Position numbers and translations under genes: made by a program. This document shows positions 2 to 22,119 of a DNA stretch of 33,972 nucleotides, in pieces (positions within the stretch are counted from its first letter, which is position 1; each line of letters opens with the position of its first letter). Origin of the DNA: a virus. Where the stretch lies: positions 1-33,972 of the IMG/VR virus record IMGVR_UViG_3300009504_000018. The stretch is one strand, 5' to 3'. Below the pieces are notes generated by a model, which was not told the origin of the DNA, ran no database searches, and saw nothing but the letters and a program-made list of their open reading frames with translations.

Positions 2-1453
2 CTGGCTAAGGGCGTGAAGCGGCGCAGCAAGCAGCTACACCTTTGGGAGAAGGAGACCGCAGACCCGGCCGCAGAACGCAGCCGCGCAACAATGTGGGAC
101 GTTCCTAGATTCGCCGAGTATCACGGCTACCACATTATCGTGACCGAGAATGTGGTAGATGCTCGCCAGTGGGTCATGTGGGACGCCTGGATTCTGGCAA
201 TGACGAGCTTGGGGTACGATTATCACGTTGTTTACTTCAACAGCATGTTCGCCCATCTCGATCCGCGCCGAGTGGAGAGCCTGACCGACTTTGCGCCGCA
301 GAGCCGCGACCGCATGTACGTCGTCTTCTGGAAGCGGGGCAACAAACGGCCCGATCTGGACTTTCGTCCCCGCGCCCACTGCGCCCGCTGCGAACAAGAA
401 GTCGAGGCGGTTCAGTCTTGGAAGCGAACCAAGACGGTGCAAGCCCTGGGCGGCCGTTGGGGGCGGTATGGCGACCAGTACGTCTACGCCTGCCCCAACT
501 GCGCGGATATTGTTCAGCCTTTCTTCTTTGCCGCTTACAACGCCATTGACTGGAGCTTGCCCTCAGAACGGATCGGCGACCGGCAACGGCCGTTGAAGGA
601 AAAGACAATCCAGCGCATCGAGGAAGGCTTGCGCCGATTCGCGGGGCAATATCTGATGGTTCAGTTGGCTTATGGTCGCCAAAGTAATTGCGCCGTTCCC
701 ACTGGTGGGGCCATGTTCACCCAAACAACGGCTGAGACTGTGGGATTAGCTATGCCGTTTGTGCTTAACACTCTTCACGGCGGGACAACGATCCGTGATA
801 TGTCAGAGGCTATGCAAACCCAAACAGCGCGACAGGGCTTGGGGTTAGCTATGCCATTTCTCTCCATTCAGTACACCCCAGGTTACAACAAGAGCGTTGG
901 CGAGCCGCTGGGCGCGGTGACGGCGCAAGATCATCATGCGCTGGTGCAGCCGATGCCGTTTATTTCTGTCCAGCGCATTCACAACAAAAGCAAGGGGATA
1001 GGCGATCCTCTGGACACATTCGTTGCGGGCGGCAACCATCACGGCCTGGTTATGCCCGCCCCCTTTATGACCAGTTATTACGGCAGCGGTGGGCAGATTC
1101 GCGGCCTCGATGAAGCAGCCGGAACAATGACTGGCAATGACCGGCACGGCCTGGTTATGCCTTTCCTGTTGGGTTACGCCAACAGCGAATCTCCGGCCCG
1201 TTCGGCCGTTGAGCCGCTGCGAACGATGCACACTGAGAACGGGCAAGGGCTGGCCCAGCCTGCGCCAACGGCGAAGGTAGACGATTGCCACTTCCGCATG
1301 TTGCAGCCGCACGAAGTAGGGCGGGGGATGGCCTTTCCTGACAGTTATCGGGTATTAGGGACAAAGCGCGACCAGGTGCGTCAGTATGGGAATGCAGTGA
1401 CGCCGCCTGTCATGCGTATGATTCTGGAGCGGTGCGCGGCAACGCTCCAGTAA
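2..1453 (+). CDS. C5-cytosine DNA methyltransferase, 5'-truncated by the window edge
   Basis: This enzyme should transfer a methyl group from S-adenosylmethionine to cytosine in DNA. The frame is open to the window edge, so the motif I SAM loop and the catalytic PCQ-type motif IV lie upstream. Visible, counting from the GTG at 14, are the ENV motif VI (TENVVDA, residues 44-50), the motif VIII region (PQSRDRMYVV, 95-104), a CxxC...CxxC zinc pair (C123/C126 and C160/C163), and the C-terminal motifs IX/X (RMLQPHEVGRGMAFPDSY and QYGNAVTPPV). Between about 215 and 416, where target recognition should lie, there are six imperfect repeats of about 33-36 residues, each ending in a GLVMPF-like string. 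It is the first gene of a DNA-modification operon. The family is secure; the target sequence is unknown. Confidence 0.9.
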   Translation: MAKGVKRRSKQLHLWEKETADPAAERSRATMWDVPRFAEYHGYHIIVTENVVDARQWVMWDAWILAMTSLGYDYHVVYFNSMFAHLDPRRVESLTDFAPQSRDRMYVVFWKRGNKRPDLDFRPRAHCARCEQEVEAVQSWKRTKTVQALGGRWGRYGDQYVYACPNCADIVQPFFFAAYNAIDWSLPSERIGDRQRPLKEKTIQRIEEGLRRFAGQYLMVQLAYGRQSNCAVPTGGAMFTQTTAETVGLAMPFVLNTLHGGTTIRDMSEAMQTQTARQGLGLAMPFLSIQYTPGYNKSVGEPLGAVTAQDHHALVQPMPFISVQRIHNKSKGIGDPLDTFVAGGNHHGLVMPAPFMTSYYGSGGQIRGLDEAAGTMTGNDRHGLVMPFLLGYANSESPARSAVEPLRTMHTENGQGLAQPAPTAKVDDCHFRMLQPHEVGRGMAFPDSYRVLGTKRDQVRQYGNAVTPPVMRMILERCAATLQ

Positions 1454-1468
1454 GGGAGAGAATGAATC

Positions 1469-1600
1469 ATGATTTGGTTAATCGGACTGGTAATTTTCGT
1501 GTTGTGGGCGTTGGTCTTATTTGTGGTAATGGCTTGTATGGTTGTTTCCGGCCGTCAGGAAAAGGCCGGGCAAGACACAAGCGGCGTAAAAACATTATGA
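1469..1600 (+). CDS. 43-residue single-pass membrane protein
   Basis: This short gene encodes MIWLIGLVIFVLWALVLF followed by more hydrophobic residues and a polar tail, which is one N-terminal transmembrane helix (about residues 2-26) with a 17-residue hydrophilic C-terminus. A GGGAGAG ribosome site lies about 8 bases before the ATG. Its TGA overlaps the ATG of the next gene as ATGA, the same coupling used along the operon, which is the main reason to accept so short a gene. The function is unknown. Small membrane proteins in phages can be holins, superinfection-exclusion factors or anchors, and nothing here decides between them. Confidence 0.72.
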   Translation: MIWLIGLVIFVLWALVLFVVMACMVVSGRQEKAGQDTSGVKTL

Positions 1601-2070
1601 ACCAAATGGATACCCCCGTACCGCCTGAGCTTTTAGACCTTCTTCGTTTTATGTGTCAAACGTGGGCGAAAATAGATGAATGGGCGTATGCCCACGTTGA
1701 GCCTGACTCTCTCATTCACTACCCCGTTGTTCAAGGGACGCGCAACCAGATCGATTTACGGCGCATAGGCGAACAGAATTATGATGTAACAAACATCCGC
1801 AAAGCGGTAGATTGGATACTAAAGCAAGAGACGGCAAAAAGGCCGGAATTTAGCTATTTTGATTTCAAGCCAGAAATAGCTACCGACATTGACCGCGCAT
1901 CTGGCGAATGTCGCTGGACGCTTGAGGAGACGGATTGGTACAGCATGTGGAACGGCGAATGCGGCGCGGTTTGGTCTTTGGAGGTTGGCGGGCCGACTGA
2001 GAATAAGATGGCCTACTGTCCGCAGTGTGGACGGCCGTTGGTTGAAGTTGCAGAGGACGAAGAAGAATGA
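1597..2070 (+). CDS. Unknown protein with C-terminal zinc-ribbon-like motif
   Basis: This is a 158-residue soluble protein with no family I recognise. The ATG at 1597 is chosen because it overlaps the stop of the preceding small membrane gene (ATGA); a longer frame from 1432 would run across that gene. The last third holds GEC...YCPQCGRPL, with CPQCG matching one half of a zinc ribbon and an earlier Cys (GECGAVW) as a possible partner. The C-terminus is acidic (EDEEE). It ends in an ATGA overlap with the adenine methyltransferase gene, so the two are probably translationally coupled. A helper role in DNA modification is inference from position only. Confidence 0.75.
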   Translation: MNQMDTPVPPELLDLLRFMCQTWAKIDEWAYAHVEPDSLIHYPVVQGTRNQIDLRRIGEQNYDVTNIRKAVDWILKQETAKRPEFSYFDFKPEIATDIDRASGECRWTLEETDWYSMWNGECGAVWSLEVGGPTENKMAYCPQCGRPLVEVAEDEEE

Positions 2071-2723
2071 ACAATGCCCAACTAATTAACCAAACAAGTC
2101 TGACGGTTGAACATTATACGCCGCCTGAGATTATTGCTCTTGTTCACCAGATGTGGGGTGAGGATGGAATTGATTTCGACCCGGCTTCTTCGCCGGTCGC
2201 TAACCAAACGGTTCGCGCCCGCGTTATTTGCACGGCTCCAAAGTGTCACCAGATCGGCGTGACTGTCGGGCTGCCGCTGATGAACACGGATGATAGGGGC
2301 GGGCTTGATGTGGGATGGCACGGCCGTGTCTGGCTTAACCACCCGTTCGGCCAGCCGGTCGCGCCGTGCAAAACGGATTGCGTCAAAGCCTCCTGCCGTA
2401 AGCGTGGCTATCACGTAACGCATGGACTGCCGGGCAGCAGTAATTGGATCAATAAGTTTCTGGCTGAGTATCGCGTTGGGCGGATGGAAGAGGGGATCAG
2501 CATCCAGTATGCAGCTACCAGCGAAGCGTGGTTTCGGCCGTTGCATAACTACGCCCGTTGTTGGATATATGGCCGGACAAACTACATGGACGCTGACGGC
2601 CGTCGGCAGATGGGGGCGACGAAAGGTAGTTGTCTGGTTTATGTGGGGCGACGTTGGGCTGAGTTCCAAAGTATTTTTTCGGATATTGGACGGGTTGATT
2701 TAGCCGGCGCTGACTGGATGTAG
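2067..2723 (+). CDS. Phage Dam-like N6-adenine DNA methyltransferase
   Basis: The 218-residue protein resembles the phage Dam family (PF05869 type), which methylates adenine N6. It has YTPPEII (residues 17-23), DFDPAS (36-41), GRVWLNHPFG (86-95) and an SNWINKFLAEY segment (125-135). In the catalytic position the usual NPPY appears as NHPF, a conservative but unusual variant. Between that motif and NWINK lies a Cys/His-rich insert (C101, C105, C110, H116, H119) that may bind metal. The start is fixed by the ATGA overlap with the gene before. The neighbouring C5-methyltransferase and the downstream DpdA-like gene make this a multi-modification locus. The family is likely; catalytic activity with NHPF is not proven. 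Confidence 0.82.
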   Translation: MNNAQLINQTSLTVEHYTPPEIIALVHQMWGEDGIDFDPASSPVANQTVRARVICTAPKCHQIGVTVGLPLMNTDDRGGLDVGWHGRVWLNHPFGQPVAPCKTDCVKASCRKRGYHVTHGLPGSSNWINKFLAEYRVGRMEEGISIQYAATSEAWFRPLHNYARCWIYGRTNYMDADGRRQMGATKGSCLVYVGRRWAEFQSIFSDIGRVDLAGADWM

Positions 2724-2731
2724 GTACATCA

Positions 2732-3235
2732 ATGTGGAATGAAACAGATTTGAATCAAATTTTGGCGGGCAACCCTGATTTGGCTCTGGTTGATGGCGAG
2801 CGTAGTTACCAGCTTGATCGGGGTGGTTCATTCAATACGAAGGTTGCCTCAGCTCCCGCCCGGCCACAGCCACGGCTTACGCCCAGCGGCTTGACTGGCC
2901 CGGAGCGCCGGTTTGCCCTACAGATTCTTGAGCCAGGCTTAACGACTGAGTTCGTTTTCTGGTTGTACGAGCCAGAGATACGGATGAAGGGTCAGACGTA
3001 CACGCCGGACTTCTTCGCCCTGGGCGTTGACGGCGTGACGCGGCTGTATGAGATCAAGGGCGCGAAGAAGTTGGGCAGCCAGGATCGCAGTTCGGCAAAG
3101 ATTCGGTGGGCGACGGCCGTCTATGGCAGCGACCGGATTAAGTTCTTTTGGGCGAAAGAGAAAGATGACGGCGGTTGGCTTATCCGCGAGGTTAAGACGA
3201 GCGTAGCGCCGGCGCGGTGTTTGAGGGATGGGTAA
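2732..3235 (+). CDS. PD-(D/E)XK endonuclease, DUF1064-like
   Basis: The 167-residue protein carries the nuclease core as GPERRFALQI (E58), YTPDFFAL (D93) and YEIKGAKK (E107-x-K109). This order is typical of the small phage endonucleases grouped as DUF1064 or VRR-like proteins, which cut DNA or resolve branched DNA. The N-terminal 50 residues are low in complexity and Pro/Ala rich. It lies between the adenine methyltransferase and the YaaA-like gene, two genes before the HerA-type ATPase, so a nuclease-translocase pairing is possible but is inference. The spacing to the gene before is 8 bases with a weak ribosome site. Confidence 0.82.
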   Translation: MWNETDLNQILAGNPDLALVDGERSYQLDRGGSFNTKVASAPARPQPRLTPSGLTGPERRFALQILEPGLTTEFVFWLYEPEIRMKGQTYTPDFFALGVDGVTRLYEIKGAKKLGSQDRSSAKIRWATAVYGSDRIKFFWAKEKDDGGWLIREVKTSVAPARCLRDG

Positions 3236-3236
3236 T

Positions 3237-3746
3237 ATGAATAATGCTCTTGCTTTGATTTCCTGCTGTAAAAGCAAATTGGATACAAGGACGGCCGTGC
3301 CTGCGTACCAACTGTACACCAGCCATCTGTTTAAGGCGCAGTACAACTACGCCACGTTGGTTTTAGGATTGCGGCCCAACAGGATTTACATTCTGTCCGA
3401 CTATTACGGGTTAGTTCGCAGCGATCAACCTATCACGCCTTACAAGGCGGCGACATTAGCCAAAATGAGCCGGGATGATAAGGTTTTTTGGTTACAGCGC
3501 GTTTGGGACGGCCTCGGTATTCCCCTGGCCTTTGCGGGGCGTGGGGCCACCTTGCACCTGATGGCCGGGCAGCTTTATCGCCGTTTTATGGTTTCTGGTT
3601 TGGATGAGCGTGGCGTGATCTGGCGCGTTCCCCACCCGCAGTCATTCGGTTACGGTCAGCAACTTTCCTGGTATCAATCTCAAATTAAATCGAAACAAGC
3701 GTCCTGGATATGGCAACGGCCGTTACCCGCGAAGTATTTATCATGA
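3237..3746 (+). CDS. YaaA/DUF6884-like protein
   Basis: The protein opens LALISCCKSKLD, followed by AYQLYTSHLFKAQYNYA and IYILSDYYGLVRSDQPITPY. That series is typical of the DUF6884 group, distantly related to the YaaA (DUF328) fold. I choose the ATG at 3237 (169 residues) because the GAGGG ribosome site at about 3223 is well spaced for it; an in-frame ATG at 3228 sits almost on that site. The stop overlaps the next start as ATGA. YaaA-type proteins bind DNA, and from memory one family member acts in the bacterial 7-deazaguanine DNA (Dpd) pathway. With a DpdA-like gene in the same operon, a role in base modification is plausible but unproven. Confidence 0.75.
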   Translation: MNNALALISCCKSKLDTRTAVPAYQLYTSHLFKAQYNYATLVLGLRPNRIYILSDYYGLVRSDQPITPYKAATLAKMSRDDKVFWLQRVWDGLGIPLAFAGRGATLHLMAGQLYRRFMVSGLDERGVIWRVPHPQSFGYGQQLSWYQSQIKSKQASWIWQRPLPAKYLS

Positions 3747-4600
3747 ACAACAATTTTCTTAATCTGGAAACGTCTGAAATATGGCAAATCACGCCTGATG
3801 ATTTGATCGGTAACTCGATTGCCATCCTGGGAATTAACGGCAGCGGTAAGAGCAACTCGGCGGCCGTGTTGATGGAGGAGGCTTTAGCGTCGGGCATTCC
3901 CATCATCGTGATTGACATTGCCGGTGAATACCACACCCTGCGCGAACGGTACGACCATGTGACGGTTATTGGCCGGTCGCTTAACGCAAAATTTTGCGAG
4001 GTTGATTTACTGGTGGATATAGAGAATGTCTGCGACGTGGCCACAAAGGTTTACGCCAATGCGGTTAGCGTCGTCTTCGACATGAGCGGAATCAAGCAGG
4101 TGGATCGGTTCATGCTGCTCAATTATTTCCTGACAACTATCTGGGAGTTGTCGGCCCAACTGCGCATCCCCACCATGATATTTTTGGAGGAGGCGCACAA
4201 TTGGATACCGCAGCAGGGGCGGACGAGCGCGACTGATGTGGTCATTGATATGGCGTGCGAAGGGCGCAAGCGGGGCATTTCGCTGGTGATGATTGGGCAG
4301 CGGAGCGCCCGCATTGACAAGGACACGCTCACCCAGGCCAAGATAGGGATTTTACACCGAGTTAATCACCCACTGGACATGAAGGTTTACATTGACATGA
4401 TTCCTCGCCCGCCGCGCTATGTGCGCGATACGGTCTACAAGCTGCGAGACGGCGAGGTGATTGTCCTGTACAAGGAGAAAGTGCTGCGGGTGCAGATGCG
4501 CCGCCGCCACACCCGTCACCCAGGGGCTACGCCGACAATGGATATGATTCCGGCCAAGAGCAAGCAACTGTCTTTGCTGGACTTAATGGGGGCGGCATGA
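3743..4600 (+). CDS. HerA/FtsK-type P-loop ATPase (DUF87-like)
   Basis: The 285-residue ATPase has Walker A GINGSGKS (residues 30-37), the HerA-family DIAGEYH string (58-64), Walker B MIFLEEAHNW (145-154) and a GQRSARID segment (185-192) at the sensor position. The RKRG at 175-178 may supply an arginine finger. HerA-like proteins form hexameric rings that move double-stranded DNA, often with a nuclease partner such as NurA. No NurA is visible, but a PD-(D/E)XK nuclease lies two genes upstream. The start at 3743 follows the ATGA overlap, not the upstream ATG at 3710. It is short for HerA and lacks the N-terminal HAS barrel domain. Its phage role (repair, packaging, defence or anti-defence) is open. 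Confidence 0.85.
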   Translation: MNNNFLNLETSEIWQITPDDLIGNSIAILGINGSGKSNSAAVLMEEALASGIPIIVIDIAGEYHTLRERYDHVTVIGRSLNAKFCEVDLLVDIENVCDVATKVYANAVSVVFDMSGIKQVDRFMLLNYFLTTIWELSAQLRIPTMIFLEEAHNWIPQQGRTSATDVVIDMACEGRKRGISLVMIGQRSARIDKDTLTQAKIGILHRVNHPLDMKVYIDMIPRPPRYVRDTVYKLRDGEVIVLYKEKVLRVQMRRRHTRHPGATPTMDMIPAKSKQLSLLDLMGAA

Positions 4601-4797
4601 AATCAAAAGTTAAGTGTGACTGGATTATTGCCTATGACGGTTCGCACGGCCGTAACGCCTACGCTGTCGAATGTAAGCGGTGCGGCGTCATGCAGCGGTT
4701 TGTTACGCCTATCTCGTTGGATGTCTATTTAGCGGCAATTCGCGCTTTCCAGAATATTCACGCGAATTGCAAGCTGGAGAAGGTAGAGACGACATGA
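4597..4797 (+). CDS. Small unknown protein with CxxC
   Basis: This is a 66-residue protein with a CKRCGVMQRF segment in the middle and another Cys near each end (C7 and C58), possibly a small metal-binding fold. ATGA overlaps bind it to the ATPase gene before and the gene after. I recognise no family. The coupling and codon use like its neighbours make it a credible gene. Confidence 0.68.
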   Translation: MKSKVKCDWIIAYDGSHGRNAYAVECKRCGVMQRFVTPISLDVYLAAIRAFQNIHANCKLEKVETT

Positions 4798-5153
4798 GGA
4801 AATCAAAGACGTACCAGGGATTGATGGAGATTGCGATTGTAGAGACGCCTAATGCGGCCGTTGAATGCCGAGATAGTGTTTTCATCCGGTATACGCCTGA
4901 GAGTAACGGGATTGGTCCCGTTTTGTCGGTTACGCAGCGGGAGACGCCGCCGACTGACGCGGAGATGAACCGTTGGGCGGGCATATTTAAGCAGTTCCAC
5001 CCGCGCATAGCGGGGGACGCTTTGATAACCGATGGCGGTTCAGTGAATGGTTATCATATCCGTCGCATCTCGATGCCAGCGGAATACCCTCTCCCCAAGA
5101 AGGCGATCAAACAAGAGGAAGAAACAAATGAACCAGAAGAGACGATGGGCTAA
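4794..5153 (+). CDS. Unknown protein, 119 residues
   Basis: The start at 4794 is fixed by an ATGA overlap; an in-frame start at 4680 would run inside the previous gene. The protein has a globular-looking N-terminal part (MEIAIVETPNAAVECRD...) and a charged tail rich in Lys and Glu (KQEEETNEPEET). No family is recognised. Its C-terminal end overlaps the next gene by 26 bases, in line with operon packing. Confidence 0.66.
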   Translation: MRKSKTYQGLMEIAIVETPNAAVECRDSVFIRYTPESNGIGPVLSVTQRETPPTDAEMNRWAGIFKQFHPRIAGDALITDGGSVNGYHIRRISMPAEYPLPKKAIKQEEETNEPEETMG

Positions 5154-5631
5154 ACGAGGCCGAAAAAACAACCCAGATGATATTGTAATGATAGTGAATG
5201 GGAGAATTGTTACCATCGCTGAGGTTTTGGCAGCCAAGAGAAAGAACAATGAAAGAAATCTTTCTTGGAAACGCATGGAGGGGTTTCGCGTTATCCCCTG
5301 CTGGGTGTGGGTTTTTGATAATGGCCCGACATTCCCTTTTGGGGGGACATGGTTATACGTTAGAACATCCAGGTGCGATTATCGGATAGGCAAAGATTAT
5401 CATTCCTTTGGTATTAAAGAACAGATAATGAGCCAGTTCCTCCAAGACGGTCTTTGTTACGAGGAGTGGAAACGTACCTTTTTGAATACGTATTCCAAGC
5501 CAGACGCGAAACTGCCGGGACGACCAAACGCGACGGCGCTTGGGTGGGCTGTTGTGTATAGGAGGAAGCTGGAGCGGGTTTTTGCGGAAAAATCGTTAGC
5601 CTATGAATATGCGCGTGAGGTTTGTCCATGA
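5128..5631 (+). CDS. Unknown basic protein, 167 residues
   Basis: The ATG at 5128 is preceded by AGAGGAAG at a good distance; the longer frame from 5047 lies mostly inside the gene before. The first 20 residues are strongly basic (MNQKRRWAKRGRKNN), which could contact nucleic acid. The middle is rich in aromatic residues (PCWVWVFDNG, GGTWLYVRT). The TGA overlaps the next gene as ATGA. I recognise no family. Confidence 0.66.
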   Translation: MNQKRRWAKRGRKNNPDDIVMIVNGRIVTIAEVLAAKRKNNERNLSWKRMEGFRVIPCWVWVFDNGPTFPFGGTWLYVRTSRCDYRIGKDYHSFGIKEQIMSQFLQDGLCYEEWKRTFLNTYSKPDAKLPGRPNATALGWAVVYRRKLERVFAEKSLAYEYAREVCP

Positions 5632-6077
5632 AACTCATTCGAGGAGTCACAGTACATCAGCCCTGGGCATGGTGTATCAGTATGGCGGCCGTTGATCCTG
5701 AGCGGTATAAGCGGATTGAAAACCGGACGTGGGCGCCGCGCAACCATGTTGGGCATTACCTGGCAATTCATGCCGGGAAACGGGTTGACGATACGGCCTG
5801 GGAGATGATCCGGGAAATTGCTCCTGAAATATGGCTGCCCAAAGTGGCGGAGTTGGAATTAGGCGCGATTGTGGCGGTCTGCCGCCTCGCCAGGGTGATC
5901 GAGGATCAGTTGCAGGCCCCAGAAAGCCAGCGTCGTTGGCTGTTTGGGCCGAAGGGCTGGCTGTTGGAGGATGTGCGAATGATAGACCCTGTGCCGTGCC
6001 GCGGAGCGCAAGGGCTGTGGGAATTACCGCCGCTTGTGTATGGGCAGGTGCGCTCGAACTGGCTCAAAGGGAAATGA
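5628..6077 (+). CDS. ASCH-domain protein
   Basis: The 149-residue protein starts MKLIRGVTVHQPWAWCISMA and continues IENRTWAPRNHVGHYLAIHAGK. The HQPWAW and IENRTW strings are hallmarks of ASCH domains, a beta-barrel related to PUA that binds RNA or modified nucleotides. Later strings include GAIVAVCRLARVIED and WLFGPKGWLLEDVRMI, as in family members. ASCH and the related EVE and PUA folds include readers of modified bases, so its place in a DNA-modification operon, two genes before the DpdA-like gene, is suggestive. That link is inference. The start at 5628 is chosen from the ATGA overlap. Confidence 0.82.
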   Translation: MKLIRGVTVHQPWAWCISMAAVDPERYKRIENRTWAPRNHVGHYLAIHAGKRVDDTAWEMIREIAPEIWLPKVAELELGAIVAVCRLARVIEDQLQAPESQRRWLFGPKGWLLEDVRMIDPVPCRGAQGLWELPPLVYGQVRSNWLKGK

Positions 6078-6424
6078 GTATGCTTTACATTGAACGGGTT
6101 AGCGACGCTGGGGGCGGGATGTGGGTTTTGTTTGAGCACGGCCGTTTCCACCAGCCGATTGTTATATTGACTGACCACCAGGCGCAGCGCATTGCCTCAG
6201 AGATTGCGAGTAAGGTGGCCGTTGATACGGATGCCCCTATGCTGGTTGGCGACTTAGCCAGGCGGGTTAAAGAGCGGCGCACGGAGCTGCGCATAAGTCA
6301 GGCGGAGTATGCGGCCAAGTTGGGCGTCAGTCGGAATTATCTCAGCATGATTGAGCGGGGGAAGGCTGACAACATCAGCCTGGGGATTTACCGCACGATC
6401 ATGGCTGATTTACAGGGCGCGTGA
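6074..6424 (+). CDS. XRE-family helix-turn-helix regulator
   Basis: The 116-residue protein has a C-terminal XRE domain at about residues 60-112: DLARRVKERRTELRISQAEY, then AAKLGVSRNYLSMIERGKAD. The SQAEYAAKLGVSRNYLSMIE stretch is the helix-turn-helix. The N-terminal 58 residues (MWVLFEHGRFHQPIVIL...) are of unknown type. The start is set by the ATGA overlap with the ASCH gene. It probably binds an operator near this operon. Candidates in the window are the palindromes at 7407-7427, 9833-9857, 10138-10170 and 11174-11199, but none can be assigned from sequence alone. Confidence 0.88.
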   Translation: MSMLYIERVSDAGGGMWVLFEHGRFHQPIVILTDHQAQRIASEIASKVAVDTDAPMLVGDLARRVKERRTELRISQAEYAAKLGVSRNYLSMIERGKADNISLGIYRTIMADLQGA

Positions 6425-7341
6425 TGTTTCTTTTTACCGGCATCAACCCACGTTGGCAGTTATTCCCCTGGCTTCCCGCTGGCCTGCATGTCATGTACAG
6501 CGCCGGGGGAATGTGGGATAACGAGCGGGGCGAATGGCGCTCACGGCCGTTTCCACGTCTGGCCGGTATGCGCTGGTTAGACTGCGGGGGATTCACATTA
6601 CTCAACAGCTATGGCGACTATCCGTTTTCAGTCGCCGCTTACGCTAACCTGGTAGCCAGGCTGAAGCCCACTTTCTACGCCACAATGGATTACCCGTGCG
6701 AGCCGGAGATTAACCGGACGCTGACGCTTACCGACAATAGGACGCGCATCGAAGCGACGGTTGAGAATGCGGCCCGGCTGCTGGCGATGGAGAGTATGAT
6801 CGGGGTTGGCACGGCCGTGCCTGTCATCCAGGGGGATACGTTGGCTGAGTACCTTTACTGTATTGAGTTGTACGCGCAGCGGGGGTTAATTCGGCCGTAC
6901 ATGGCCGTAGGGTCTATGTGCAAGCGTAGCAACGACAAGCAGATTTTGGCCTTGCTGCCCGCCATCTACCAGGCGGCGACGGCCGTTGGGGTGGAGCGGC
7001 TGCACCTGTTCGGCCTGAAACTCTCCCGGATGTTACGGCCGTTGGATGGCTTGATCTGGTCGCGGGATAGCGCGGCCGTCCTCTTCGCCCAAAACAAATT
7101 CATGCGCGGCAAATTCAGCGGCCGTAGCTGGGCGAAATCGAAGGGCGACAAGAAGGCGGCCTTCGGCTATTTCTGGGACAGCGCTCATGAAGATAGCCTG
7201 TTGTACAGCGCGATTCAGCCGGGCGTCTGCCCGGATTGTGGGGGAATGGATGGCTGCTCGCCGTGCGAAGAGTTCGACTTGTGGGGCTGCCCAGATTGCG
7301 GCTTTAGTTGGGACGGCCAGCAGCCTATTTTAGCGGCCTGA
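6424..7341 (+). CDS. dpdA: DpdA-like DNA 7-deazaguanine transglycosylase (TGT superfamily)
   Basis: The 305-residue protein matches the phage/bacterial DpdA branch of tRNA-guanine transglycosylases, which swap guanine in DNA for a 7-deazaguanine base such as preQ0. Visible motifs are LDCGGF (52-57), FYATMDYPCEP (84-94, with D89 a likely catalytic acid), VPVIQGDTLAEYLYCIELY (132-150), YMAVGSMCKR (159-168), LHLFGLKLSR (193-202) and SRDSAAVLFA (213-222, D215). A C-terminal Cys set (C269/C272, C278/C281, C289/C292) forms a double zinc ribbon. No folE, queD, queE or queC gene is visible, so precursor would come from the host or from genes outside the window. It overlaps the XRE gene by one base; GTG at 6421 is an alternative start. 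It is the last gene of its operon. Confidence 0.84.
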   Translation: MFLFTGINPRWQLFPWLPAGLHVMYSAGGMWDNERGEWRSRPFPRLAGMRWLDCGGFTLLNSYGDYPFSVAAYANLVARLKPTFYATMDYPCEPEINRTLTLTDNRTRIEATVENAARLLAMESMIGVGTAVPVIQGDTLAEYLYCIELYAQRGLIRPYMAVGSMCKRSNDKQILALLPAIYQAATAVGVERLHLFGLKLSRMLRPLDGLIWSRDSAAVLFAQNKFMRGKFSGRSWAKSKGDKKAAFGYFWDSAHEDSLLYSAIQPGVCPDCGGMDGCSPCEEFDLWGCPDCGFSWDGQQPILAA

Positions 7342-7371: not shown

Positions 7372-7401
7372 TTGACAATTCAAGCGAATTGATGCTATAA
7401 T
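7372..7401 (+). promoter_or_regulatory. Strong sigma70-type promoter
   Basis: TTGACA (7372-7377) and TATAAT (7396-7401) are both perfect, with an 18-bp spacer and an extended TGC before the -10. It follows the end of the dpdA-like gene and should drive the operon 7452-9714 from a start near 7408. The promoters of the two RNA cassettes at 16553 and 32671 have the same layout. Confidence 0.88.
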
Positions 7402-20161: not shown

Positions 20162-20731
20162 ATGATTACCGTCAAAGTGAAGCAAGCCGGACAGTATAAC
20201 GGCCCAGGCCATAAAAGACGGCCGTTCGCCCAGGTGGGCGATGTCATTGAAGTGGCGTCTGCTCCCTACGCACAATCGTTGGTAAATGATGGTCTTGCGG
20301 ATTGGTTGGATGCAGAGGAAAAAGCCGAACCAGTCCCCCCCACCCCTGCAACGGCCGTTGATGAAAGCCCGCCTTCTTCTGTGTCTCAACTGGTTGCGGC
20401 GCAGCGTGAAACCGCTTCCGCTTTACCTGTGCGCCGCAGTAAAAAAGAAGATGCGCCCAAGAATGAGCCTAAGAATAAAGCAAAGCCTGAGCCTACTCAG
20501 GAAGACGAGCCTGATGATTTCGCCACAATTATCAGAGGGATTGGATTAGGACCGTCGCGGACGCGGGAACTGCACCTGAAGGGTATTTTGACGCTGGCAG
20601 ATTTGGCCGCTGCGGATTCGGCGCGACTGGTGCAGCTCATGGAAGTGAGCCAAAAGACGATTGATAAATGGATTGCCGCGGCTCAAGCCAAATTAGAGGA
20701 AATGGCGGCGGGAACGGATGAGGAAGAATGA
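20162..20731 (+). CDS. Helix-hairpin-helix protein of the head module
   Basis: A 189-residue protein with an N-terminal small beta domain (MITVKVKQAGQYNGPGHKRR...GDVIEVASAPYAQSLV), a long disordered, charged linker (about residues 52-120, rich in Pro, Lys, Glu), and a C-terminal HhH domain (FATIIRGIGLGPSRTRELHL then ILTLADLAAADSARLVQLME). HhH domains bind DNA without sequence preference. A second HhH protein at 21772 suggests a DNA-contacting role near the head-tail joint. RBS AGGAGG lies well before the ATG. Confidence 0.75.
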   Translation: MITVKVKQAGQYNGPGHKRRPFAQVGDVIEVASAPYAQSLVNDGLADWLDAEEKAEPVPPTPATAVDESPPSSVSQLVAAQRETASALPVRRSKKEDAPKNEPKNKAKPEPTQEDEPDDFATIIRGIGLGPSRTRELHLKGILTLADLAAADSARLVQLMEVSQKTIDKWIAAAQAKLEEMAAGTDEEE

Positions 20732-21771: not shown

Positions 21772-22119
21772 ATGGCTGATTTTATTTGTTTGACGACATT
21801 GGTATCGCCGGAAGACGGCCGTGTCTACGAGGGTGGCGAAACGGTCAAACTCGACAAGACCCCATCCGGCGAAATTTATACGCTCAAGCGGTTTAAGCTG
21901 TTGGCCGACATGACCGCTTTAGATGAGTTACAGGCTGTGAAGGGCGTTGGCCCGGCATTGGCCCGCAAACTGTGGGTGTACGCTGGCATTCAAACGCCAG
22001 CTGCGTTGGCCGTCGCTAATACGGCCGTTGTCGCTGAGAAGATGGGCGTGAAGCCCAATCAAGTAGAGCGGTGGCAAAAAGAAGCCTCCGCCATAGAACC
22101 TAGTGGAGGTGAATCATGA
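21772..22119 (+). CDS. Second helix-hairpin-helix protein
   Basis: A 115-residue protein. The N-terminal beta part (FICLTTLVSPEDGRVYEGGE) resembles that of the gene at 20162, and the HhH follows as LQAVKGVGPALARKLWVYAG then IQTPAALAVANTAVVAEKM, KPNQVERWQKEA. So this is a short paralogue-like relative with no linker. GGAGG precedes the ATG by about 8 bases. It overlaps the tail-tube gene by ATGA. Confidence 0.72.
   Translation: MADFICLTTLVSPEDGRVYEGGETVKLDKTPSGEIYTLKRFKLLADMTALDELQAVKGVGPALARKLWVYAGIQTPAALAVANTAVVAEKMGVKPNQVERWQKEASAIEPSGGES

Follow-up and report, generated by a model that had tools for sequence, protein, structure and literature searches.

How a phage could exchange guanine for a 7-deazaguanine in its DNA when it carries a predicted DNA transglycosylase and no visible genes for the queuosine precursor preQ0 is the question raised by one end of IMG/VR virus record IMGVR_UViG_3300009504_000018. 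The stretch of DNA analysed here, referred to as the window, is this whole record (33,972 nucleotides, positions 1 to 33,972), which is linear and probably a fragment of a viral genome. An earlier note, made from the letters alone, described at positions 2-7341 an operon for three DNA-modification enzymes (a C5-cytosine methyltransferase, a Dam-like adenine methyltransferase and a DpdA-like transglycosylase) together with a nuclease, a YaaA-like protein, a HerA-type ATPase, an ASCH protein and an XRE regulator. Family searches recover all of these genes on the plus strand, tightly packed in one operon. On balance, we lean towards the reading that the operon is a phage DNA-modification cassette in which DpdA inserts preQ0 and the YaaA-like protein, a member of family DUF6884, converts it to 7-amido-7-deazaguanine (dADG); modification of this phage's DNA is predicted from genes alone. 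The biosynthesis of dADG in phages is an open question (PMC6884629, PMC8306585).

DpdA and DUF6884 in the window

The last gene of the operon (6421..7341, plus strand) encodes a predicted DNA transglycosylase of the DpdA family. Profile searches bear out this identity, with 45.4 bits to PF23859 against a curated cut-off of 27 and a match to phrog_1279 at 1.7e-19. In our searches, PF23859 covers the singleton DpdAs of mycobacteriophage, Rhizobium-phage and related origin and not the DpdAs of 9g, CAjan, 7-11 and MED16, and the window's DpdA family matched 375 phage records. Residues D54, D90, Q137, G164, H195 and D216 are conserved and align with the catalytic motifs of tRNA-guanine transglycosylases (TGTs). 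When equivalence to E. coli Tgt is read by eye, the general base/nucleophile aspartates (D54, D216) and the base-binding residues (D90, Q137, G164) are kept. The C-terminal tail, residues 269-296, is zinc-ribbon-like, as judged by a zinc-ribbon match. An AlphaFold2 model (predicted local distance difference test, pLDDT, 79.9; tail unreliable) matches TGTs throughout. Its best structural match is the DNA preQ0 insertase DpdA (7ui4; Z 20.6, root-mean-square deviation 3.5, 243 aligned residues, 19% identity), and tRNA TGTs lie within 1 Z unit of it (Z 19.8, 9% identity). The modelled TGT fold is firm; the DNA-DpdA subfamily call draws on identity and profile. The closest relatives are a copy 51% identical in viral contig L026 and one 57% identical in a contig of an Anaerolineales metagenome-assembled genome; an in-frame stop interrupts the L026 gene (8001-8816). 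Neither DpdA nor DUF6884 of the window, used as a single sequence to scan viral contigs, gave matches, and alignments were needed.

The YaaA-like protein (3228..3746, plus strand; 172 amino acids) belongs to DUF6884 with 90.4 bits to PF21818 (1.5e-25), the curated cut-off being 30. The resemblance to YaaA has a structural basis, as the model (pLDDT 88.9) has the YaaA "cantaloupe" fold (5caj, Z 9.4 over 153 residues), and the protein contains CCKSK, an instance of the CxxxK motif. DUF6884 is named in bacterial DpdC (PMC11888242), which hydrolyses preQ0 in DNA (dPreQ0) to dADG (PMC12839542). Bacterial DpdC has about 310 amino acids by the PADLOC model length, and the window protein has a single domain in 172; it is therefore termed DpdC-like and not DpdC, and is proposed as a single-domain enzyme of this kind.

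DUF6884 and dpdA are neighbours in other viruses

The evidence that ties DUF6884 to DpdA comes from viral contigs fetched by DUF6884 alone, without selection on dpdA, in two scans of 11 and 61 overlapping loci. Clustered at 60% identity, these form 18 groups; the window is counted among them, and L176, readable only with a changed genetic code, is not. A divergent dpdA adjoins DUF6884 in five unrelated viral contigs (L107, L108, L113, L122 and L176). The order in L113 is queD-queE-folE-methyltransferase-queC-dpdA-DUF6884, a complete preQ0 operon. L122 carries a PAPS reductase-like gene, dpdA, DUF6884 and Vut_1, which is the family that includes the preQ0 transporter YhhQ; an N6/N4 methyltransferase gene lies further along. 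With TGA read as glycine (code 25), L176:3683-7747 shows queD-folE-queE-queC-DUF6884-dpdA-ParB_N, in which every gene except dpdA has Pfam support; its gene content is that of a full operon for guanine modification, in a phage whose host is recoded. The QueC proteins of L113 and L176 score 181 and 243 bits. If chance rates between 0.0006 and 0.02 are assumed (they are not measured values), finding four adjacencies among 17 lineages has a binomial probability between 3e-10 and 3e-4. DUF6884 is also fused to DpdB in myxophage Mx4 (3.6e-123) and two relatives; fusions lie at L006:5858-7471, L131:2860-4476 and L154:1740-3356. An open reading frame (ORF) matching the window's ASCH-like protein lies near the L131 and L154 fusions and overlaps other ORF calls.

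The divergent dpdAs were recognised by motifs and weak profile matches (2e-4 to 6e-3 in three of four), the one in L107 only by motifs and a single-sequence match of 0.0014. As a group they are related to the window's DpdA family (hhalign 96.1%, E 4e-9). No Pfam model catches them, which limits a negative result for the DUF6884 records that have no adjacent dpdA, among which PF01702 gave no match. A profile built from four of them, A8, gives these same proteins high scores that are not evidence; in a background check, a second, A8-type dpdA was found near none of 80 DpdA loci. The DUF6884 nearest to that of the window (40% identical) is in L172, where a gene with TGT-like motifs (L172:4700-6471) stands directly before it; this gene is weakly supported, with 12.9 bits in one targeted test and nothing from hhalign.

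Various observations weigh against our reading. In the majority of the DUF6884 lineages sampled, dpdA is not found close by. DUF6884 occurs in 0 of 50 viral records carrying the window's DpdA family. It is also absent from phages 7-11 and MED16, which contain dADG; another route to dADG therefore exists, the dADG of these two phages is left unexplained, and DUF6884 was rejected as a general explanation of dADG in DpdA-only phages. The window holds the only PF23859-DUF6884 pair found, with 2.7 kb between the two genes. Its DUF6884 is divergent, with LSDYYG for LSAxxG (Asp in place of Ala), and the PADLOC DpdC profile gives it only 0.0016, as against up to 1.3e-8 for other phage DUF6884 proteins. 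The case for the window therefore leans on the other phages.

Some of these observations would suit a different function, in which DUF6884 serves DNA repair, as a lesion or base-flipping protein unrelated to DpdA, and the phage DNA holds only dPreQ0 and methylated bases. For YfjM, the Pfam curators propose a part in repair (PMC11701544), and both the many DUF6884 lineages lacking dpdA and the absence of DUF6884 from the DpdA-family records agree with it. Five independent adjacencies, two of them in complete preQ0 operons, and the DpdB fusion speak against such an unrelated role, which we consider unlikely. The suggestion in the earlier note that a gene of unassigned function performs the final step is supported in a specific form, DUF6884 as a DpdC-like enzyme, from linkage in other phages.

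In the pathway that we propose, DpdA would replace certain guanines of phage DNA, once it is replicated, with preQ0 that comes from beyond the window. The nitrile of the base, already in DNA, would then be hydrated to the amide by DUF6884, a single-domain relative of the DpdC/YaaA fold, so that dADG results. Independent marks would come from the C5 and Dam-like methyltransferases, the ASCH-like protein may read modified DNA, and the XRE protein would control the operon. HerA could serve as a motor for DNA access in place of DpdB, the least certain step. The analysis establishes which genes are present, what their folds match, how the operon is laid out and that DUF6884 and dpdA are repeatedly linked in other phages; we infer the substrate, the reaction and the product, and that the divergent DUF6884 of the window does the same job.

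Source of preQ0 and probable host

DpdA would need preQ0, and its source can only be presumed to lie outside the window, a further point against our reading. In agreement with the earlier note, none of folE, queD, queE and queC was found among the window proteins scanned from this partial contig. The large terminase subunit shares 51-52% identity with its counterparts in two genomes from the phylum to which the Anaerolineales genome mentioned above belongs; because of this and of the 57% identical DpdA, a Chloroflexota host is likely from sequence comparison. In these two genomes, the stretches read on either side of the related terminase do not contain the cassette. That the host supplies preQ0, as the earlier note suggested, is doubtful, since Chloroflexota genomes with a related terminase gave no convincing QueC (weak partial matches of at most 27.5 bits) and lack a Vut_1 match; the Anaerolineales genome mentioned above gave no convincing QueC either. 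Among Anaerolineales at large, QueC "matches" come from 86 of 101 genomes, but those listed are weak, most of them partial (the best has 41.9 bits, against the 181 and 243 bits of the phage QueC proteins), and were not counted.

It may then be that the cassette is silent for guanine, with preQ0 never reaching DpdA and only methylated bases in the DNA. Phage Orion sets a precedent that also weighs against our reading, as it has a singleton DpdA and unmodified DNA (PMC6884629), and both the missing que genes and the poor QueC matches fit this outcome. We nevertheless regard a silent cassette as improbable, about on a par with the repair role. The window DpdA keeps its catalytic residues, and the genomes searched may not include that of the true host. 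Moreover, six independent loci with a dpdA of the window's family (L003, L027, L029, L034, L073 and L097) have a Vut_1-like gene abutting it, on one side or the other (Pfam-confirmed in all five tested), which suggests preQ0 salvage, and a Vut_1 match of 183 bits is present in the Anaerolineales genome whose DpdA is 57% identical. Phage homologues of YhhQ had been recorded earlier, not tied to any particular phage group (PMC6884629). The window phage may rely on salvage, or its guanine may stay unmodified.

PAPS-reductase-like ATPases recur near dpdA (L029:9594-10418, L122:4064-5251, Gilgamesh gene 116 and RHph_TM3_3_3 EVB37_084; by motif or weak match only, L184:1780-2643 and L186:5571-6257). 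A role in precursor supply is possible.

Other genes of the operon

Successive genes mostly overlap by 4-8 bases (2067/2070, 3228/3235, 3743/3746, 4597/4600, 6074/6077 and 6421/6424). The sole 12-of-12 match to TTGACA-N18-TATAAT sits just 3' of dpdA (7372..7401, plus strand). It is a perfect sigma-70 consensus of the extended type, with TG before the second hexamer, and is predicted to start the next transcription unit. Because of the overlaps and of this position of the only perfect promoter consensus, a single operon is well supported. The remainder of the window is the head and tail module of a tailed phage, with terminase and capsid, within which two proteins are helix-hairpin-helix-like (20162-20731 by Pfam match, 21772-22119 by eye).

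Of the three modification enzymes from which the earlier note predicted layered protection against restriction systems, the two methyltransferases have putative activity. The C5-cytosine DNA methyltransferase (2..1453, plus strand; PF00145 7e-10, phrog_116 7e-31) is about half visible, since the contig starts inside the gene. The PF00145 match spans only profile positions 270-322, the visible part holds the C-terminal motifs, and the catalytic N-terminal half with the PCQ motif region lies beyond the contig start. Its target-recognition region, in translation, has about five repeats of 33-36 amino acids (PF...EPL.T.T...HGLV; window 750-1290). The Dam-like methyltransferase (2067..2723, plus strand; phrog_111 1e-24) falls below the PF05869 cut-off (19.5 bits against 28.1) and carries NHPF at the place of Dam's NPPY. 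Both NHPF and a Cys-rich insertion (PCK..C.K..C...RG.H) are kept in homologues from phages of Vibrio and Pseudoalteromonas, so this is a conserved subfamily of putative activity rather than a gene in decay. The subfamily is found in about 200 records of Vibrio phages.

The other genes before dpdA also lie on the plus strand. A small protein with C-terminal zinc-ribbon-like cysteines (1597..2070, start chosen by eye; phrog_10312 3.6e-11) precedes the Dam-like gene. A PD-(D/E)XK nuclease, TnsA-like or resolvase-like (YTPDF...YEIKG), occupies 2732..3235 with two weak matches (PF08722 0.0062, phrog_190 0.0012). The HerA/FtsK-type ATPase (DUF87) lies at 3743..4600 (PF01935 1.1e-14; PADLOC HerA 1.8e-23). 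Three small ORFs with overlapping ends follow (4597-4797, about 4794-5153 and about 5128-5631); the two scanned had no family match. The ASCH-like protein (5622..6077; phrog_3193 1.9e-31) has no Pfam ASCH match, its homologues in Erwinia and Dickeya phages are annotated ASCH, and it is possibly a reader of modified nucleic acid. The XRE-family helix-turn-helix regulator is at 6074..6424 (PF01381 2e-9).

HerA-nuclease pairs are known parts of defence systems. The operon might accordingly be a phage-borne restriction or exclusion island, DUF6884 included, in which the methyltransferases protect and the TnsA-like nuclease and HerA cut unmodified DNA. DUF6884 matches the PADLOC candidate PDC-M57A at 3.3e-23, and HerA co-occurs with TGTs in BRC systems (PMC12839542). 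The nuclease, however, has only 167 amino acids and is no more like TnsA than like phage resolvases, HerA consists of an ATPase domain alone, and none of the ten operon proteins scanned with PADLOC matched DpdB or DpdD-K of the Dpd restriction-modification system (dpdA-K); we give this island little credence. HerA as a regular neighbour of DpdA was not relied on either, as the one candidate (L095) overlaps an ORF on the opposite strand.

A further alternative is that DUF6884 makes another nitrile derivative, such as an amidine (dG+) or, as ArcS does, an amino-acid adduct. The archaeal protein AF0587 is a further structural match of the DUF6884 model (Z 7.8, weak because a score in this range can reflect a mere common arrangement, which also counts against our reading). 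A DUF5591 (ArcS-domain) protein of phage nt-1, which we read as the ArcS homologue reported for nt-1 (PMC6884629), matches AF0587 by sequence (3e-8). Because ArcS transfers lysine to preQ0 in tRNA (PMC11298593) and its domain matches AF0587, a nitrile-converting role, the amide reading that we favour included, fits the modelled fold of DUF6884, the same-domain match being putative. Products other than the amide are still less probable than the island: the characterised DNA enzyme of this kind, bacterial DpdC, gives the amide (PMC12839542), and no amidotransferase gene was recognised in the L113 and L176 operons. That the window's TGT-like protein acts on tRNA is very improbable, as it shares the TGT fold with tRNA enzymes but has no PF01702 match in a Pfam scan, its nearest solved structure is a DNA DpdA and its gene lies within a DNA-methyltransferase operon. 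The grouping with tRNA-modifying TGTs that the earlier note named as a refutation is therefore not seen in silico.

Significance

DUF6884 is officially a family of unknown function, for which the current guess is DNA repair; the link to 7-deazaguanines gives it a testable function and makes it a candidate enzyme for one of the ways in which phages form dADG. If this is true, DpdA and DUF6884 would be a compact two-protein tool for placing dADG in DNA. In a broader form of the proposal, single-domain DUF6884 is a phage-wide minimal DpdC family that converts preQ0 already in DNA, DpdA and DUF6884 are the smallest known dADG pathway, and the window combines them with two methyltransferases and with HerA in place of DpdB; we put this form at slightly short of an even chance. 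Further phage 7-deazaguanines (DpdL/M/N) are reportedly the subject of a 2023 paper, in which a prior mention of DUF6884 is possible.

Comparison with known systems

The phage singleton DpdAs (PF23859) of mycobacteriophages and Rhizobium phages are like that of the window in curated family and catalytic motifs, and often stand beside DNA methyltransferases (RHph_TM3_3_3, phiLM21), as it does. The window DpdA differs in being 21-33% identical to most members, in having DCGG in place of DSGG and a zinc-ribbon-like C-terminal tail, in lacking an adjacent Vut_1 gene and in having DUF6884 alongside. The bacterial dpdA-dpdB-dpdC module for dADG shares with the window a TGT-like DpdA, a DUF6884/YaaA-fold protein and an ATPase nearby, whereas in the window the short single-domain DUF6884 replaces DpdC and HerA replaces the ParB-like DpdB. 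Phage preQ0 operons with DpdA (9g, CAjan and nt-1) have in common with the proposal for the window a phage-encoded guanine exchange in DNA. These three phages encode preQ0 synthesis genes, none of which is visible in the window, and the window has DUF6884, which CAjan and 9g lack. Mx4 and its relatives (L006, L131 and L154) have DUF6884 as a fusion with DpdB, and a search of the record for a TGT gave nothing. As in the window, their DUF6884 has an ASCH-like protein nearby (in Mx4 by eye only), and the C5-cytosine methyltransferase of Mx4 matches that of the window.

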